DNA of 64,000 nt from positions 1,178,001-1,242,000 of the forward strand of contig NZ_CP040504.1 in the NCBI RefSeq assembly GCF_005886145.1, given 5' to 3'. The translations under genes were made by a program, and so were the position numbers. The stretch's first letter is position 1; the number at the start of each line of letters is the position of its first letter. The notes under the pieces were generated by a model. That model searched no databases, had not been told where the DNA came from, and saw nothing but the letters and a program-made list of their open reading frames with translations. This DNA is from Neisseria sp. oral taxon 014 str. F0314. GTDB lineage: Bacteria; Pseudomonadota; Gammaproteobacteria; Burkholderiales; Neisseriaceae. Below, piece by piece: positions 56,023-64,000 of the stretch.

Positions 56023-57039
56023 TCAATCGCCGTATCCGTTTGGATTCCGGCTTACCCAACGCCAGGCGTCTTCTATCATTTGAGTCAAATCACGTTTGGT
56101 TTCCCAGCCGGTTTGCTGTTTGGTATAAGTCGGATCGGCATACACACAGGCCAAGTCGCCTTCGCGGCGCGGCTTGATTTGATAAGGAATGGTTAAGCCC
56201 GAAGCGGCTTCAAATGCACGGACAATCTCCAACACCGAATACGCCCGCCCCGAACCCAAATTCAGCAGGTGTACGCCGGGAACATGGCTTTTGGCCTTCA
56301 TTGCGGCAACATGGCCTTCCGCCAAATCCACCACATGAATATAGTCGCGCATACCCGTACCGTCAGGAGTTGGATAATCATCGCCGAATACGGAAAGATA
56401 CGGTAGTTTCCCGCCGGCCACTTGGCAGATATACGGCAGCAGGTTATTCGGAATCCCGTTGGGGTGCTCGCCGATTAAGCCGCTTTGATGCGCACCGATA
56501 GGGTTGAAATAACGCAATAAAATCACGCTCCAACGAGGGTCGGCTTTCTGAATATCGGTCAAAATCCGTTCCACCATAGCCTTGGATGTACCGTAGGGAT
56601 TGGTGGTGTCGCCCGGTTTCATGTCTTCTGCGTAAGGGACTTTACCCGGATCGCCGTACACCGTGGCCGACGAACTGAACACGATGTTGAACACACCCGC
56701 CCGCGCCATTTCTTCAGCCAACACCAAGCTACCCGACACATTGTTATCGTAATACTTCATCGGTTCGGCCACGCTCTCGCCTACAGCTTTCAGACCGGCA
56801 AAATGAATCACCGAATCAATATCATGTTCCGCAAAAATCCGCCGCAAAACCTCACGATCACGAATATCGCCTTCATAAAACGGCACAGATTTACCCGAAA
56901 TCTGCTGTAAGCGGGGCAGAATTTTTGCGGACGAATTACATAAATTATCCAAAATTACAACATCAAATCCCGATTGGAGTAAGGAGATAACGGTGTGCGA
57001 ACCGATAAAGCCGGTACCGCCGGTAACGAATATGGTCAT
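56023..57039 (-). CDS. galE: UDP-glucose 4-epimerase
   Basis: 338 residues, SDR family: NAD-binding [16 protein letters not shown], catalytic Ser/Tyr in [11 protein letters not shown] and [12 protein letters not shown], nucleotide pocket [16 protein letters not shown]. Supplies UDP-Gal/GalNAc for LOS and capsule. Neisserial galE lies in the D region of the capsule locus, which fits the divergent polymer genes here. Divergent from the ACP gene across 135 bp of AT-rich DNA. Confidence 0.96.
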
Positions 57040-57174: not shown

Positions 57175-57405
57175 ATGTCCATCACCAACGAAATTTTAAC
57201 CCTTGTCTCAAAAGCCGCCCAAAAGCAAGTATCCGAACATGAAGAACTACTTGCATCAGGTTTAATTGATTCGATCAGTGCAATGGATTTGATGCTGTCC
57301 ATCCAAGAAAAATTCAATGTTGAAATTCCATTCGAACAAGTAGTGAATATATTTGCAAATACATCCAACATCATTGAATTTGTAGAGCGAAACTACAAAG
57401 GATAA
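57175..57405 (+). CDS. Acyl/aminoacyl carrier protein (DltC-like)
   Basis: 76 residues, four-helix phosphopantetheine carrier: LLASGLIDSISAMDLMLSI with the attachment Ser33 in the LDS-type motif, and FNVEIPFEQV on helix III. The LxSGLIDS pattern and the partner ligase 7 bp downstream make it a dedicated DltC-like carrier and not the housekeeping AcpP. AAAAGGAAC precedes the ATG. Strongly AT-rich. Confidence 0.85.
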   Translation: MSITNEILTLVSKAAQKQVSEHEELLASGLIDSISAMDLMLSIQEKFNVEIPFEQVVNIFANTSNIIEFVERNYKG

Positions 57406-57412
57406 GAAGAAC

Positions 57413-58852
57413 ATGAAAAGCATAACAGATTTTTCTTCCTTGGAAGATTATTTAGCATATCTGTTTAACAACACATCAGGTATCGCCATTGCCAACTCCC
57501 AAGAAAATTGCTCATGGGAGCAACTACTCAAACGGATGGATGAGTTTCTTAACAAATATAAAAAAATTGCCAACATCAACAAAAATATCCCTTTAATTGT
57601 GCACGGCCATAAACAAATAAATTTTGTTATAGCTATATACGCCTGCTTGTTAAATAAAATTCCTTTTATTCCGGTAGACAGTATCTATCCTGAAAAGCGC
57701 TTGGAACATATCTGTAATTTATCCAAGGCACAATACGTTTACCGTGCGGAAAATGATTCGTTCGAGAAGAAAAACGACGAAGAGCACGAACTGAGCGAAC
57801 GAGATCTGGCCTACATCATGTTTACTTCAGGCACTACCGGGCAGCCTAAAGGTGTCCAAATCGGCAGGGAAGCAGTATTCAACCTAATGAAATGGATGAC
57901 AATGCAACTTAATTTGGCAAAACCCAACATCTTTATGAATCAAGCGCCGTTTGCATTCGATTTATCTATGTATGAAGTATTTGGTAATCTTGCTTACGGT
58001 GGATGCATAGTATTAAACAGCCGTGAAGACATCGCCAATTCAAGCACTTGGACGGATTTCTTAGCAAAGCAACAGATTTCGACATGGGTTTCAACCCCAT
58101 CGTTTGCCATGCAGCAATTGCTCAATCCCAAATTGAATCAGCAAAATATTCCGAGTTTGAAAGAATTTCTTTTTTGTGGAGAAAAATTAGGAAAACCGGT
58201 TGTCAAAATGATTTTCCAAAAATTCCCTCAGGCAAGAATTATTAATACCTATGGCCCTACTGAAGCGACAGTGGCAACTACTTACATCGATATTACCCGA
58301 GAAATGCTGGAGGCTGAAGAAGAATTGCCGGTCGGCTATGCCGTCTTAAATTCAGATTTGAACATTGTCGATGAGGAAATTTGGATTAGCGGTATCCATG
58401 TTATGCGCGGTTATTTGAATAATGAAGTCGAAAATACCAAACGCCTTATTATTCATGACAATGAAACCAGAACATACAAAACAGGCGATTATGGCTTTGT
58501 AAAAGACAATGTATTTTATGTATTGGGACGCAGGGACGAACAGATTAAATTAAACGGCTACCGGATTGAATTATCTGAAATAGAAGAAAAAATTTTAGAT
58601 TTAAAACAATTTGGATTTGAAAACGCAGCAGTCATCGCATTAAAACGCGATACCGGCACAGTATTACGATTGGTATGTTTTTATACCTCAAAAGAAGCAA
58701 CCGAATCCACGATTATCAAGGAAGCTTTGGCAAAAAATCTGCCGTCTTATATGATGCCGTCTGAATTTATCAAGATTGATGAAATTCCGGTCAGCACCAA
58801 CCACAAAACCGACAAAAAAGCATTGTTGGAAAAATATCAGCAGGGTTTATAA
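57413..58852 (+). CDS. DltA-like aminoacyl/acyl adenylate ligase for a carrier protein
   Basis: 479 residues, adenylate-forming enzyme: P-loop YIMFTSGTTGQPKGVQI (~135), FNQAPFAFDLSMYEVF-type core motif at ~185, TYGPTEATVAT (~285), YKTGDYGF (~360) and C-terminal Lys465 in NHKTDKK. LFCGEKLG puts Cys255 where Bacillus DltA has the Cys that selects D-alanine, and the NQAP..FDLS stretch is DltA-like. So D-alanine, or a similar small acid, is the likely substrate, loaded onto the carrier protein encoded upstream. Length is slightly under DltA (~500). Substrate is inferred. Confidence 0.82.
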   Translation: MKSITDFSSLEDYLAYLFNNTSGIAIANSQENCSWEQLLKRMDEFLNKYKKIANINKNIPLIVHGHKQINFVIAIYACLLNKIPFIPVDSIYPEKRLEHICNLSKAQYVYRAENDSFEKKNDEEHELSERDLAYIMFTSGTTGQPKGVQIGREAVFNLMKWMTMQLNLAKPNIFMNQAPFAFDLSMYEVFGNLAYGGCIVLNSREDIANSSTWTDFLAKQQISTWVSTPSFAMQQLLNPKLNQQNIPSLKEFLFCGEKLGKPVVKMIFQKFPQARIINTYGPTEATVATTYIDITREMLEAEEELPVGYAVLNSDLNIVDEEIWISGIHVMRGYLNNEVENTKRLIIHDNETRTYKTGDYGFVKDNVFYVLGRRDEQIKLNGYRIELSEIEEKILDLKQFGFENAAVIALKRDTGTVLRLVCFYTSKEATESTIIKEALAKNLPSYMMPSEFIKIDEIPVSTNHKTDKKALLEKYQQGL

Positions 58853-58854
58853 AA

Positions 58855-60225
58855 ATGGATTTATATCAAATTCAGAAAAATATCTTACAAAAAGCCAAAA
58901 TTGATTCTAGAAAAGTCTCTGCTTGGATTTATAACGATCAAAGCATTGTATTTGATTTTCTGCTCAACGACTATTTCGTCAGCATCAGTTATACAGTATT
59001 AGGTCAAACCTTTAACTTTATCGAACGTAATAAGAGCAAGGTTTCTAAAATTTCCAGCTTCCCAAAATTCCTGAAATATATTTCAGAAATCTATGGAAGC
59101 TACCCGCAATCGGTTAATCAGGCAAATACTGTATTGTCTTTCAAATTTGCAGAGGCCGATTGGGCAAAAATTGAGGCTAAATTCAGTGAAATTTTGGAAG
59201 TTACTTCCATTTATTTTGGCAGCAAACTTTGCTACATCCTTAATGTAGAAAGAGACAACGGCATCAATCTGGCCGAGTACTTGGATAAACCAGAAGTCGA
59301 ATACATTGGCATTCAAGGCAATAGTAATGAGTTTTTCCTGAGCTATGCTCGGAATCATGGTTTAAATGATTATGTTTACGAGTTAAACAGCAAAGGTTTT
59401 TTGGCTGTTGAACACAAAATGGGCGTGAGTGTGTTCCGTCGCGTAAACAAGCACAGCTATAAAGATCTCTTAGCTTATTTTCCAGACTCTTTCCATGAGC
59501 TAGAAAATGTGATTTATACCGTTGAAGCGCCAAAAGTGTTGAATACCAACAAGAAAAACCTGTTGGTGTTGTTCTCTTATACCAATAAGAGTAATGAAAA
59601 CATGGTCGACCGTTATTATAGCCACCCGTTTCCATTTATAAGCAACAGCATTATGCCAAACACCTACATTATCCGTATGGCTGATGTGTCAGATGCGTTC
59701 GGTAGTCATGGTTTAAACACAAAATTTGATGAAAACATCGAAGCTAATATCCAGAATTTCATCAAGAGCTTGATGAATATTTATAGTGTAGATAAGGAAA
59801 ACGTAGTCATTTGCGGTGCATCATCAGGCGGTACGGGGGCGGTATATCACGGTTTAATAGGCGGGTACAAAACCTTTGCGATTGACCCATTTTTAGGCAA
59901 TCATAAATATTATGGCGGTAAAGATCCATTGTATCTACACTCTATTCGTACGCCGATTGGGGAAATTTTCAAAAAGCTACCGAATGAAATTGATCATAAC
60001 CTAGAAAATCAAGTAGTTATTTCATCAGCTAAAGTGTCGGAATTTTATCCTGACATTAAAGAGCTGAAAAAAGCATTGCCTACGATTACATTGTGCGAAT
60101 TTGACTTTGAAAAAATTCAAAAACACCTTGATTTTTCAGGAAATACCGTATTCTTATCCAATACCATCATCAATAATTTGCTGTTGGGCATCCACATTAC
60201 TGATTCGGACATTAATCTCAACTAA
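58855..60225 (+). CDS. Serine-hydrolase-like protein of the CpsF/XcbB / Asp2 type
   Basis: 456 residues. N-terminal ~200 residues with no recognised domain, then an alpha/beta hydrolase-like half with nucleophile GASSGG (Ser323), NLLVLFSYTNKSNENM, YIIRMADVSDAFGSHG and AIDPFLGNHKYYG. The pattern resembles the capsule proteins XcbB/CpsF and the Asp2 acyl-ester enzymes. It is two bases after the ligase, so the three genes form one unit. It may move the carrier-bound group onto polymer hydroxyls; neither a DltB-type MBOAT nor DltD is in view. The role is inference; I am moderately sure of the fold. Confidence 0.6.
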   Translation: MDLYQIQKNILQKAKIDSRKVSAWIYNDQSIVFDFLLNDYFVSISYTVLGQTFNFIERNKSKVSKISSFPKFLKYISEIYGSYPQSVNQANTVLSFKFAEADWAKIEAKFSEILEVTSIYFGSKLCYILNVERDNGINLAEYLDKPEVEYIGIQGNSNEFFLSYARNHGLNDYVYELNSKGFLAVEHKMGVSVFRRVNKHSYKDLLAYFPDSFHELENVIYTVEAPKVLNTNKKNLLVLFSYTNKSNENMVDRYYSHPFPFISNSIMPNTYIIRMADVSDAFGSHGLNTKFDENIEANIQNFIKSLMNIYSVDKENVVICGASSGGTGAVYHGLIGGYKTFAIDPFLGNHKYYGGKDPLYLHSIRTPIGEIFKKLPNEIDHNLENQVVISSAKVSEFYPDIKELKKALPTITLCEFDFEKIQKHLDFSGNTVFLSNTIINNLLLGIHITDSDINLN

Positions 60226-60235
60226 ATGCAAGGTA

Positions 60236-60270
60236 AAATAGACAGTAAGTTCAAATTTACTGTCTATTTT
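60236..60270 (+). terminator. Intrinsic terminator of the carrier-ligase-hydrolase operon
   Basis: AAAATAGACAGTAA-GTTCAAA-TTACTGTCTATTTT followed by further T residues, 10 bp after the stop. Not DUS-based. Confidence 0.9.
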
Positions 60271-60347
60271 TTTTTAAACATTTAAGTCATATTTGTAATA
60301 TTCGGGGAATACAATGGAAGTCAAAACGACTGAAGAATTTCAACGTA

Positions 60348-60403: not shown

Positions 60404-63400
60404 TTACTCTAAACAAGCCAACTGTTTTTGCAGACATTCAGCCTGTAAAGTCTTGTCTTCTTTAGCTTCAGCCACTTCCGCTGCCAGCTTCCAGTAGGCT
60501 GTCGTGTTTTGCAGAGCCAGTCCGTCAAAATAACGCTGTGCTACCTTATGGTTTTTCAGACGGCACAAAGCAGTTATATAAAGATACATAGCTTCGGGTG
60601 AGGCTTGTGCGAAATCAGCCAATATTTTGGCTACAGACTCCCAATCTTGGTTTTTGGAAAGTTTCTCTGCTTCATACAAGGCTAGCGACTGATTTTCAGG
60701 GTATTTTTGGCGTAGTTGAGCCAATAGATACGCTTCGCCGTCAGTATTGCCGGTATCGTACATTTTTTTTAGATAATTAACCGTTAAATCCTCAGGAATT
60801 AATAGCAGATTTTCTTCAAAAGCGCGGTTGAGCTGGGTAAACAGTTTTTCAGAATCACCGCGTAATTTTGCAAGTCTTGCAATCGCAATACGGCAACTTG
60901 GGTCGTTTTGCGTGTGTTTTTCAAAAGCAACCAAATACTGATGCGCACCTTGCAGATTGCCAAGTTTCATACAGAGATAGGAAGCCAACAGTTCGGGTTT
61001 CAGACGGCTTTTTTCATGATTATCCAAACTATCAATATAAGTTCTTAGCAAAGCCAGGGCCGTAAAATAATTCTGCTCCAACAGCTTTTGTGCTACGGTC
61101 AGCAAAGGTTTGTATGAATCGGGCAGGTTTGTACCGATTCGTGCAAACAGTTTTTCAGATAGTGTTTGTTCTTGATTGAATGAGGCTGCAAGCAAGGCGG
61201 CTAAAATATCTTCTTGCGTACCAATTTGGTCGTGTACAGCAAAAAATTCTGCACCTTTCACGGCATTGCCGATACACAAATCCATTTTTGCCTGCCAGTA
61301 ATCCGCAATATCGGGATAGTCAGGTAACAGATTTTGCAATACGTCAAACTGTTTGTTTGCAAATAAGGCATTCAGATAACGCTGGCGATAATCAGCGCTT
61401 TCTTCCGCATTCAGACGGCCTGCATCAAGCAGTGCCTGAATACGGCTTGCAGCCAAGCTCCATGCATGATGGTTTTCGGCTTGAGTAATCATATCCTGAA
61501 GAATAGGCAGACTATCGGCAGTTTCAGGCTGGTCAAGTGCCATAATAGCCTGATACACGCGTTCGCAGTTACCGCCTTTTTGGAATGGGAAGGTGGCATG
61601 AATACGTTCAAGATATTCCGGTTTTAAACCCGTTTTTAGAATATTTTCTAGTTCATCAAATGTTTCTTGTTCAGTCAGCGTAACTGGCCCAAATCCGGAA
61701 TTTTCATAGTCAAACCACCCTCTTTGAAGTGTATGGGCACCAGAAAAAAACTCTTCTTGGTCGAATTGATAATAGATAATAGATTTATTCAGATAAGCCA
61801 TATCAAAGGCTACAGAGGAATAATCAGTAATCAAAATTGATGATTGGCTAAATAAGTTTTGTATGCTTTCTGTAGCACTTGCTCCTCTCCAAACCTGAAT
61901 GTAATCAGGAATATCAAATAAATCTAAATAAGGCTCAATGTTTGGGTGTGGGGCAAATGTTATTTCATAATTAAACTTTTCTGCCAATTGTTTCAAATTT
62001 TTAGAGTGTAAAAAATTAAACCAATGCTGTGCATAGGAAGTTTTCATAAAATCGGTATTTATAGCGCGTGTATTGCTACCGCTACCAATATTTTGTCCTA
62101 CAATATTGTTCCGCCAAGTAGGCATAATCAGAATTTGTTTACTTTGAGCAATATTCTTTGATACCAAATTGTCATAACGCGGAAAGCCTGCTAACACTAC
62201 CTCTTTTTCTGTGAGTTTATAACGGCTAGGATTAGCTATGATTGTTTGATATTCAGGAGTAGCAGTGGCAATAAAACAATGCAGATTGGTCTTAGTATTG
62301 AACCATGCGGAAAGATCGTTTTGGGTCACTCCATGTTGGAGGAAAACAAATTTTTTGCTGTGTTCGTATAAATCACCGAAATAATTATTGATATGTTTTT
62401 CCAAGTGGCTAGAAATGATTTTTTCGGCTTTACGCAAGTGGTGCTCGTATTCACTGCTGCCGAATTCTACCAGCTTGAAACCTTCCTGTTTAAGGCGATC
62501 CCAGTCTGGCGCGGTTTTGTTCAACACGAAATAGCAGGTCTGTTCAGGGTGGTGCTGCATCATATAACGGTAGAAATGCTCGGCGTTGTCATCTGCTTTG
62601 GTTTCTCTATCCATTAATAGCCAGCTACCGTCCGAAAGATATTTTTCAGACGGCATGAATAAGCCTGTCAGCTCGTTCAAAGTGATGCCGTGCATAAAGG
62701 TTTTGCCTTTAATTGAAATTCGCATCGGTTTTTGGTTGAGCAGGATATTGATTTTGGCATTCTCAGCAACTCCGCCGTAAGGAATCCAAAGGCGTTTTTC
62801 GTAAACGAATAATTGCTCGTTCAAATTGTTAATGACGCTTTTTGTGTAAGCGGGAATAATGTCATCCCCATTAGCCTGCACGGAATAGGGCAGATCAAAA
62901 TGAGTGAAATAGCTGACAAGAAACTGTTTGCGTTCATGGTCGATGTTTTCAATATAGGCAATTTGGAATGGTGGCTCGCTCTGTTTGAACATACCGAGCA
63001 TACCAACCTTATGGAACAGCCATATACCCGCCAAGCCAAACTCCATGATGTTTTTTTCATCAATATAATTAAAAACCTGCTTCATTAAGGCATAAAAGTG
63101 TGCTTTTTGTTCAGCATTCAACAATTCCAGACGCTCAGGTCTATTGAGTAATTGTTGGATATACCATGCCATATCGTACAATGCAGTTTTTTGGATTGAA
63201 GATGGTACGCTTCCCAAGCGGTTTTTATAGTTTTGGAGCATAGGCAAAAAGCCATACTCAAAAACATTAGAAAACTTTTCCACTTTCTGCCAAGAAGTAT
63301 CTAAAGTAGATGTACCGCTCTCGCGTTTGCGGTAGAAATAGACGGCATCTTTGTCAAACACTGCTTTTGCGTCCTGCAAACCTAATAGATAGTCGGCAAT

Positions 63401-64000
63401 AAATTTGCCGTCTTCAAAATTTGGTTTAACATTGTGGTTAAACGCCAAGCCTTGTTTTTTAATATGACTGACTTTGAAAAAGGTTGAAGCGGCTGACATA
63501 TTGATGAATTTGTCGAGCTTAGCAACATCAACAACCTGAGTTTTGTTGAAGCGGAATTTTAAAGGATGACTATCTTTAACAATATTCTGATTTTCAAAGA
63601 AAAATTTTATATTAGTAGCTACCGTTACTGCCGACGGATGGTGACTAATTTGGGTATCCACTGATTTGAAGTAATCGGGGTGAAGGTAATCGTCAGGGTC
63701 TGTAAATACTACCCATTCAGTTTGCGTATATTGCAATCCCAAATTGCGTGCCGAAGCCTGACCGCCGTTTTCTTTGTAAAAATAATGAATATTTTTTGGA
63801 AATTTAGCTTGCCATTGTTTGATAATTTCTGCCGAACGGTCGGTCGAACCGTCATCCACTAAAATCAGTTGGATATGTTTTTTGAAATTCAGACTTTGCT
63901 TCGTCAGGCTAGAGAAGTAGTCGTTTAGATATTTCTCAACATTATACACAGCAGAAACAACTGTATATTGTTGCGTACCGTTGTATTTTACCGGTAAATA
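60404..64000 (-). CDS. Capsule polymerase-like fusion: GT2 + CDP-glycerol glycerophosphotransferase + TPR-like tail (5' end missing)
   Basis: The reading frame stays open past 63949 (GTG in SAVYNVEKYL) to the window edge, so ~1198 residues are visible and the start is outside. N-terminal glycosyltransferase family 2 domain (~1-230: VVSAVYNVEKYL, LVDDGSTDRS, FTDPDDYLHP). A middle region, then a TagF/TagB-like CDP-glycerol glycerophosphotransferase (~435-800) with FLQHGVTQNDLS, FAPHPNIEPYLDLF and ILITDYSSVAFDMAYLNK. A C-terminal helical, TPR-like part (~820-1190) follows. The layout recalls meningococcal group H/Z-type polymerases that make glycerol-phosphate polymers. AT-rich in the TagF half. 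Confidence 0.8.
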   Translation of the reverse strand, partial: YLPVKYNGTQQYTVVSAVYNVEKYLNDYFSSLTKQSLNFKKHIQLILVDDGSTDRSAEIIKQWQAKFPKNIHYFYKENGGQASARNLGLQYTQTEWVVFTDPDDYLHPDYFKSVDTQISHHPSAVTVATNIKFFFENQNIVKDSHPLKFRFNKTQVVDVAKLDKFINMSAASTFFKVSHIKKQGLAFNHNVKPNFEDGKFIADYLLGLQDAKAVFDKDAVYFYRKRESGTSTLDTSWQKVEKFSNVFEYGFLPMLQNYKNRLGSVPSSIQKTALYDMAWYIQQLLNRPERLELLNAEQKAHFYALMKQVFNYIDEKNIMEFGLAGIWLFHKVGMLGMFKQSEPPFQIAYIENIDHERKQFLVSYFTHFDLPYSVQANGDDIIPAYTKSVINNLNEQLFVYEKRLWIPYGGVAENAKINILLNQKPMRISIKGKTFMHGITLNELTGLFMPSEKYLSDGSWLLMDRETKADDNAEHFYRYMMQHHPEQTCYFVLNKTAPDWDRLKQEGFKLVEFGSSEYEHHLRKAEKIISSHLEKHINNYFGDLYEHSKKFVFLQHGVTQNDLSAWFNTKTNLHCFIATATPEYQTIIANPSRYKLTEKEVVLAGFPRYDNLVSKNIAQSKQILIMPTWRNNIVGQNIGSGSNTRAINTDFMKTSYAQHWFNFLHSKNLKQLAEKFNYEITFAPHPNIEPYLDLFDIPDYIQVWRGASATESIQNLFSQSSILITDYSSVAFDMAYLNKSIIYYQFDQEEFFSGAHTLQRGWFDYENSGFGPVTLTEQETFDELENILKTGLKPEYLERIHATFPFQKGGNCERVYQAIMALDQPETADSLPILQDMITQAENHHAWSLAASRIQALLDAGRLNAEESADYRQRYLNALFANKQFDVLQNLLPDYPDIADYWQAKMDLCIGNAVKGAEFFAVHDQIGTQEDILAALLAASFNQEQTLSEKLFARIGTNLPDSYKPLLTVAQKLLEQNYFTALALLRTYIDSLDNHEKSRLKPELLASYLCMKLGNLQGAHQYLVAFEKHTQNDPSCRIAIARLAKLRGDSEKLFTQLNRAFEENLLLIPEDLTVNYLKKMYDTGNTDGEAYLLAQLRQKYPENQSLALYEAEKLSKNQDWESVAKILADFAQASPEAMYLYITALCRLKNHKVAQRYFDGLALQNTTAYWKLAAEVAEAKEDKTLQAECLQKQLACLE

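Follow-up and report, generated by a model that had tools for sequence, protein, structure and literature searches.

Why would a Gram-negative capsule locus encode proteins resembling those of the Gram-positive Dlt system? The question is raised by three adjacent genes, for a small carrier protein, a DltA-like ligase and a serine hydrolase, at positions 57175 to 60225 of a 64,000-nucleotide stretch of the Neisseria sp. oral taxon 014 str. F0314 genome (contig NZ_CP040504.1, positions 1,178,001 to 1,242,000), which is referred to here as the window. An earlier note on this DNA proposed that the polymer made by the neighbouring enzyme is decorated with D-alanine (D-Ala) or another small acyl group by a soluble transferase that replaces DltB and DltD. 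The analysis described here leaves that proposal as the best available explanation after two corrections, namely that the candidate transferase belongs to the XcbB/CpsF family and that the polymer probably consists of a sugar-phosphate chain. The probable function of the module is carrier-fed aminoacylation of the capsule polymer, whichever small amino acid is used; this reading is computational and draws on gene content, protein families, co-occurrence, the ligase pocket and the predicted fold.

An operon that accompanies a capsule polymerase

The three genes lie on the forward strand with gaps of 7 bp between carrier and ligase and 2 bp between ligase and hydrolase. The carrier (57175 to 57405) has 76 amino acids and a phosphopantetheine site at Ser33. 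The ligase (57413 to 58852; 479 amino acids) contains Asp183, Cys255 within an FCGE motif and Lys465, and the third gene (58855 to 60225) encodes an XcbB/CpsF-family protein of 456 amino acids with an alpha/beta-hydrolase fold, Ser323 and His424, a putative aminoacyl transferase. In the complete 2.50-Mb genome, the capsule locus is ordered galE (reverse strand), carrier, ligase, hydrolase (forward), polymerase (reverse) and ctrA-D. The GC content, taken in 2-kb windows, is 0.36-0.38 across the trio compared to 0.46-0.55 in the preceding 10 kb. The residues, the tight spacing, the AT-richness and the position between galE and a TagF-like polymerase, as described in the earlier note, were all confirmed.

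Among 83 Neisseriaceae genomes, the XcbB/CpsF hydrolase family was found above its cut-off in eight and at E 0.001 in 13, with the five matches below the cut-off (G001, G002, G003, G006 and G020) left out of the membership count. Seven of the eight hydrolases are of a long form, and these occur in exactly the seven genomes with a ligase of at least 72% identity. Three other Neisseriaceae ligase matches at E 1e-40 share just 28-35% identity, and the remaining 76 genomes contain neither an above-cut-off long hydrolase nor a ligase above 35% identity. A carrier, with orthologues in the six further loci, and a polymerase adjoin the ligase and hydrolase in all seven cases, while ctrA-D lie within the retrieved stretch in six and galE stands beside the trio in five. 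No trio without a polymerase was found among the 83 genomes, which upholds the link to polymer genes that the earlier note had drawn; a fatty-acid-type ligase, the other outcome it had named as speaking against its proposal, was likewise not encountered, and Asp183 is present.

The eighth genome (G064) encodes a short hydrolase, without ligase or carrier. Neither an AMP-binding ligase nor a carrier was seen beside short XcbB genes in four neighbourhoods (G064, Pseudoxanthomonas, Paracoccus and Escherichia coli CFT073), of which two were judged by record annotation only, the plasmid gene table being incomplete, and two by BLAST at E 1e-4, which a divergent carrier could escape. In E. coli CFT073, the short XcbB/CpsF gene lies beside a TagF-like capsule polymerase (L086, 7206-8234), with no AMP-binding ligase or carrier, and the locus also contains a 396-bp gene annotated as pantoate--beta-alanine ligase.

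In a class-wide survey of 369 genomes, the hydrolase family was above cut-off in two, one being the window's own, and in 25 at E 0.001; a ligase at E 1e-60 was present in at least two, again including the window's own, with up to four candidates per genome scored. On plasmids, the hydrolase was found in four records, all from Paracoccus. No DNA match to the trio was found in E. coli genomes, and five stretches of viral contigs fit the search pattern, none encoding a relative. A contig scan using one pattern from the seven-row alignment returned only three loci, all already in that alignment.

The trio genes are under purifying selection, with dN/dS values of 0.02-0.17 in 11 of 15 gene pairs from four of the seven genomes; the other four pairs, all of the ligase, are saturated. 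Their joint occurrence in seven genomes and the purifying selection on them show that the arrangement is real and not due to chance. The ligase of N. elongata ATCC 25295 (G013) shares 99.6% identity with the window ligase, and those of four other Neisseria share about 75%. For the hydrolase, the values are about 91% for four of the same five genomes and 82% for G035. This mismatch indicates that alleles of the activation pair move separately. Two carrier/ligase alleles, with 63-66% and about 75% amino acid identity to each other, occur among the Neisseria (window 57175-58852; L049 480-2157; L050 5569-7242).

Probable activation of a small amino acid

The carrier matches PF00550 (E 3.6e-8), and Ser33 lies within a DS motif read from the sequence. 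Its scores against the curated DltC models are under their cut-offs (NF003464, E 5.9e-8, 32.6 bits, cut-off 68; TIGR01688, 27.5 bits, cut-off 52.35). The phosphopantetheinyl transferase family PF01648 has two above-cut-off matches in the genome. The ligase matches PF00501 (E 1.8e-52), and among the matches listed its nearest NCBIfam models are those of DltA, NF003417 (E 3e-113, 379.1 bits, cut-off 476) and TIGR01734 (E 7.5e-112, 374.5 bits, cut-off 559.85), both below the cut-off. Overall identity to DltA proteins is only about 30-34%.

The ten positions of the substrate pocket, which were located by motif on the PheA numbering, read DLYSLCTVAK in all seven trio ligases. Among four DltA proteins compared, three have DLMSLCTVAK and that of Staphylococcus aureus has DLMSFCTVAK, so that nine or eight of the ten residues are equal. 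Fatty-acid activation was ruled out by Asp183, which contacts the amino group, and by the DltA-like pocket. Cys255 occupies the chirality position of DltA, but as proof of D-Ala it was dropped, since the second, glycine-activating adenylation domain of LgrA also has this cysteine. The pocket and family thus support Dlt-type activation of a small amino acid, for which D-Ala is the leading candidate and glycine or L-alanine are possible. Given carrier-fed aminoacylation, the chance that the amino acid is D-Ala is about even. The decoration envisaged in the earlier note is thereby retained as to small-amino-acid activation (pocket DLYSLCTVAK compared to DLMSLCTVAK) and the association with polymer genes, with the choice of D-Ala left at these even chances.

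The closest full-length relative of the ligase on plasmids (43.6% identity) is found in Klebsiella electrica and Enterobacter cloacae, in an operon encoding DltD, MBOAT, ligase and carrier proteins (L062 3618-7670; L063 2618-6670) that is bordered by insertion sequences. A related activation pair therefore also occurs together with another transferase. In a further polysaccharide cluster (L083, 7211-9706), a ligase of 41% identity and an 84-amino-acid carrier-like protein stand, by sequence reading, beside a protein like aminoglycoside-3-N-acetyltransferases, with which this type of activation pair may have a third kind of partner transferase.

The hydrolase as a candidate transferase

The hydrolase belongs to the curated NCBIfam family XcbB/CpsF (NF033892), with 237.1 bits against a cut-off of 125 over residues 163-445, and has no Pfam match at E 0.001. 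It gave no family match to the Asp2 models PF16929 and TIGR03712. The nearest solved relative is an XcbB protein (PDB 9hvz, deposited with the label 'ACoA'), to which the profile match of the hydrolase family begins at residue 142. At the sequence level, this profile additionally picks up CsaC (E 0.004) and, more weakly, Gap2 (E 0.09), and the same two proteins head the structural list for the hydrolase model; 9hvz is not among the matches on that list, an absence that carries no weight. The predicted structure has an alpha/beta-hydrolase fold with the GxSxG and Ser-His features of CsaC-type enzymes, and the nucleophile Ser323, held in the motif GASSGG, is invariant in the alignment. By profile and model, the hydrolase is a member of XcbB/CpsF that is close both to CsaC and to Gap2/Asp2. 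At the level of the family, the Asp2-like assignment of the earlier note is corrected to XcbB/CpsF.

Two active-site differences set the long forms apart. The residue after the nucleophile (position 324) is serine in all seven long forms, compared to lysine in four of four short forms, 9hvz and CsaC, and methionine in Gap2. At positions 285-286, all seven long forms have HG, while an aromatic residue followed by tyrosine is found in the four short forms, 9hvz, CsaC and Gap2. In CsaC, the main-chain amide of K115, the residue after the nucleophile, is described as half of the oxyanion hole (PMC7501274). The sequence changes in the long hydrolases would fit a changed acyl group or donor.

In addition, all seven trio hydrolases have about 140 additional N-terminal residues (58855 to 59274 in the window, forward strand), which are absent from five short proteins (G064, Pseudoxanthomonas, Paracoccus, E. 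coli CFT073 and 9hvz). A related segment appears to be encoded nearby. In four of the seven trio loci (G013, G014, G024 and G037), the hydrolase gene is followed by a gene for a 353-amino-acid protein, and the one tested is a hexapeptide acetyltransferase. This gene is whole in those four loci (e.g., L049 3605-4666), and the window retains only a remnant of its start (60314 to 60344, forward strand). The remnant was identified by DNA matches to the trio loci L049 and L050; window positions 57175-60344 align to L049 480-3647, followed by a jump of about 1 kb, and likewise in L050.

The first 120 residues of the acetyltransferase are 22% identical to the hydrolase N-terminus over 121 residues (pairwise BLAST E 0.001). 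In eight of eight pairs, the N-terminal alignments have z-scores of 3.1-6.9, with 0-5 of 500 shuffles as good, compared to -1.1 to 0.8 for 15 control stretches, and the pair score is higher than those of all 501 background chunks. At low confidence, the two models agree in the order of their elements, with one helix followed by four strands and, further on, another strand and helix; that of the acetyltransferase is of poor quality (mean pLDDT 42.2). Counting against homology, a comparison of profiles of the two N-termini gave P 0.003 with a probability of only 9.6%. In combination, alignments and models suggest that two catalytic folds unrelated to each other carry N-terminal domains that are apparently homologous (window 58855-59274; L048 8334-9395). 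The domain in the hydrolase may dock on the polymer or the polymerase; given that acetyl-CoA is the donor of acetyltransferases of this kind, binding of the carrier is less likely.

Other Neisseria polysaccharide or capsule loci (L055 8274-9512, L056 7246-8421 and L057 7370-8113) encode different serine hydrolases, with XcbB/CpsF matches below the cut-off, which are perhaps other capsule acyl transferases.

The probable acceptor polymer and the proposed place of transfer

The gene following the trio (60404 to 64000, reverse strand, with its start beyond the window) encodes a capsule polymerase with an N-terminal GT2 domain (PF00535, E 3.4e-27), a TagF-like domain (PF04464, E 7.2e-39) and a C-terminal extension. 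TagF-like proteins that contain a GT-A domain, as CslB does, are reported to make poly(oligosaccharide phosphate) (PMC5974469), and the polymerase gene group of region A, a set of genes described in commensal Neisseria, is 32-33% identical to CslB (PMC6202450). According to a figure legend, the motif WHG marks glycerol-phosphate transferases and QHG marks hexose-phosphate transferases (PMC11666461). The QHG motif is present in all seven polymerases, so that the window polymerase combines GT2, TagF-like domain and QHG as in the GT-A/TagF-like subgroup. Counter to a sugar-phosphate assignment, four of the seven polymerases, not including the window's, also have a WHG string about 100 residues after QHG.

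No glycerol-3-phosphate cytidylyltransferase scored above the cut-off in the genome (best 43.8 and 20.5 bits against 165.4). A glycerol teichoic-like polymer was considered and is less likely, with QHG rather than WHG at the motif place and no such cytidylyltransferase above the cut-off. The acceptor is probably a sugar-phosphate chain rather than a glycerol teichoic acid, given the GT2 domain and QHG, the likeness to CslB and the cytidylyltransferase result. The earlier description of the polymerase as TagF-like thus applies to its domain, while GT2 and QHG fit the sugar-phosphate and not the glycerol-phosphate members.

The highest 19-residue hydropathy averages of the three trio proteins are 1.54, 1.61 and 1.37, compared to 2.58 for CtrC, so no membrane segment is expected in them. 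At E 0.001, nothing in the complete genome matched DltD (PF04914), in a search that was positive for two of the 14 controls, B. subtilis and L. lactis. No MBOAT protein (DltB) was found by Pfam and NCBIfam among the trio, GalE and the polymerase, for the ligase and GalE among the matches listed, the rest of the genome not having been searched for MBOAT. From the absence of membrane segments and of a DltD match, it follows that transfer would be cytoplasmic, before export by CtrABCD. These results, with an XcbB/CsaC-type family and fold, agree with the earlier suggestion of a soluble transferase replacing DltB and DltD.

Proposed mechanism and alternative explanations

In the proposed mechanism, the ligase would adenylate a small amino acid, most likely D-Ala, and transfer it as a thioester onto the phosphopantetheine of the carrier, as family and pocket suggest. 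Ser323 of the long XcbB/CpsF-type enzyme would then accept the aminoacyl group from the carrier, by analogy with the serine of CsaC and acetyl-CoA. As neighbourhood and fold suggest, the enzyme would pass this group to a hydroxyl of the sugar-phosphate polymer from the adjacent GT2/TagF-like polymerase, on which (or on whose product) the N-terminal domain would position the enzyme. CtrABCD, the established export route for this capsule type, would export the decorated polymer. A more detailed version, plausible but somewhat short of probable, is that an acetyl-CoA-dependent XcbB/CsaC lineage switched its donor to an aminoacyl-carrier, gaining the ligase-carrier pair, the changes from SK to SS and from aromatic-Tyr to HG, and an N-terminal docking domain common with the hexapeptide acetyltransferase of the same loci. 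D-alanylation would then take place in the cytoplasm, ahead of export, and give commensal Neisseria a zwitterionic sugar-phosphate capsule.

Several observations weigh against this account. The carrier and ligase are under the curated DltC and DltA cut-offs, and one pocket position has tyrosine in place of the methionine of DltA. The case for D-Ala leans on a pocket that is matched at eight of ten residues by a Tritonibacter ligase from a non-Dlt cluster with acyl-CoA dehydrogenase and P450 genes, and the overall closest ligase, that of the plasmid operon, has a different pocket (DLISIISIAK, five of ten equal). The predicted structure of the hydrolase is weak (mean pLDDT 55.6, built from four sequences), the top rows of its structural list are within 1 Z of an ordinary serine hydrolase, and its catalytic acid is not assignable. 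Additionally, the seven trio loci are not independent events, as the module is shared within a single genus plus one other, with exchange of ligase alleles. The active-site changes common to the long forms could reflect descent and not function, because the seven are close relatives (72-91% identical to the window protein).

Within carrier-fed aminoacylation, an amino acid other than D-Ala, such as glycine, L-alanine or another small residue, has about even odds. It would suit the tyrosine in the pocket, the cysteine in the glycine-activating second adenylation domain of LgrA, the Tritonibacter match, and the carrier ligase AlmE, which uses glycine and mis-activates D-Ala (PMC12930378); the agreement of the pocket with DltA, at nine positions for three proteins and eight for the fourth, speaks for D-Ala. 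It is unlikely that the hydrolase is an ordinary acetyl-CoA O-acetyltransferase, with ligase and carrier serving a sugar precursor, lipooligosaccharide or a lipid anchor. Though CsaC uses acetyl-CoA (PMC7501274), 9hvz bears the 'ACoA' label and short XcbB genes occur without a ligase, the 7- and 2-bp gaps and the exact co-occurrence in seven of 83 genomes tie the hydrolase to the activation pair, and the altered active site and extra domain are confined to ligase-linked forms. A second acetyltransferase would also be less needed because a hexapeptide-type enzyme (one tested) follows in four of the seven loci.

Amino acids linked by amides are known on Gram-negative polysaccharides, and attachment to an amino sugar of the polymer or of a nucleotide sugar, in place of an ester, would accord with the aminoglycoside-3-N-acetyltransferase-like protein beside the related ligase in L083. 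Such a link appears improbable here, as no amino-sugar aminotransferase gene was seen between galE and ctrA and in the case of CsaC the acceptor is a hydroxyl on polymer that has already been assembled (PMC7501274). The idea that the hydrolase is a transition transferase joining polymer to the Kdo anchor derives from CsxB, which is recorded as xcbB (PMC3647402) and was chosen as a candidate for this role; it lacked the activity in that test, though the authors did not exclude a role (PMC11666461). This function is extremely unlikely for the trio protein, which groups with acyl transferases and esterases by family, fold and serine motif, and it would need neither ligase nor carrier.

If carrier-fed aminoacylation is correct, XcbB/CpsF proteins, perhaps including CsxB, would acquire a testable role. 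Reconstitution in vitro should be easy because all parts look soluble. With phosphate and amine on the same polymer, the encounters of commensal Neisseria with antimicrobial peptides and the immune system could also change.

Flanking features

Upstream of the trio, galE (56023 to 57039, reverse strand; TIGR01179, E 5e-141) is of interest as context only. A putative terminator-like hairpin with a T-run, identified by eye, follows the hydrolase gene (60236 to 60274, forward strand). Between the polymerase and ctrA, a stealth-type gene (L003, about 1990-2892, which lies outside the window; L052 14025-14468) has a full-length reading frame in five of the seven trio loci, one of which was checked by Pfam; it is seemingly a mere remnant in G035 and in the genome of the window.

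Comparison with known systems

Genes of region A, found in N. oralis, N. subflava and N. elongata with galE near or adjacent, include the polymerase NEIS2941, the alpha/beta-hydrolase NEIS2943 and a 'D-alanine-D-alanine ligase', NEIS2974 (PMC6202450). The genes in the window agree with what that paper describes for N. oralis and, by name, order and identity ranges, those other than the carrier very probably are the NEIS2941/NEIS2943/NEIS2974 set. The paper's main text contains neither 'acyl carrier' nor 'AMP-binding' and, as far as its available parts go, names no carrier, aminoacylation or mechanism (PMC6202450). In the literature searched, which left most subscription papers outside, no description of aminoacylation by such a trio was found.

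Within the XcbB/CpsF family, the long hydrolases share their curated, above-cut-off membership with the E. coli CFT073 protein and 9hvz. Unlike the long hydrolases, these and the other members compared have about 340-354 amino acids and no N-terminal domain, and in the four neighbourhoods inspected no AMP-binding ligase or carrier was seen. CsxB of serogroup X is tied to this family by the name xcbB only, its function being listed as unknown (PMC3647402). CsaC (SacC), the O-acetyltransferase of the meningococcal serogroup A capsule, differs in its acetyl-CoA donor (PMC7501274), in lacking the 140-residue domain and in the residues beside its nucleophile.

The plasmid DltD-MBOAT-ligase-carrier operon resembles the module in its Gram-negative host and in its ligase, the closest full-length one on plasmids, but there membrane DltB- and DltD-like proteins would carry out the transfer, and the pocket agrees at five of ten positions. 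With Dlt itself, the module has in common a DltA-like ligase with eight to nine of ten pocket residues, a DltC-like carrier and a phosphate-rich surface polymer as target. It departs from Dlt in its scores under the DltA and DltC cut-offs, in lacking an MBOAT protein in the operon and any match to DltD in the genome, and in a soluble transferase of alpha/beta-hydrolase fold that would act in the cytoplasm.

The AlmEFG system of Vibrio cholerae also combines a ligase, a carrier and a transferase to aminoacylate a Gram-negative surface molecule (PMC12930378). AlmG, however, acts on lipid A, while the trio neighbours a capsule polymerase, and no LpxL-type (AlmG) family was shown among the five proteins scanned, the third trio gene being XcbB/CpsF. 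The AlmG family is that of LpxL-type acyl transferases, other than the family of the trio transferase. Surface-polymer aminoacylation is thus known from Dlt, with membrane transferases outside or at the membrane, and from Alm, on lipid A; soluble aminoacylation of a capsule before export would, if true, be a third solution.

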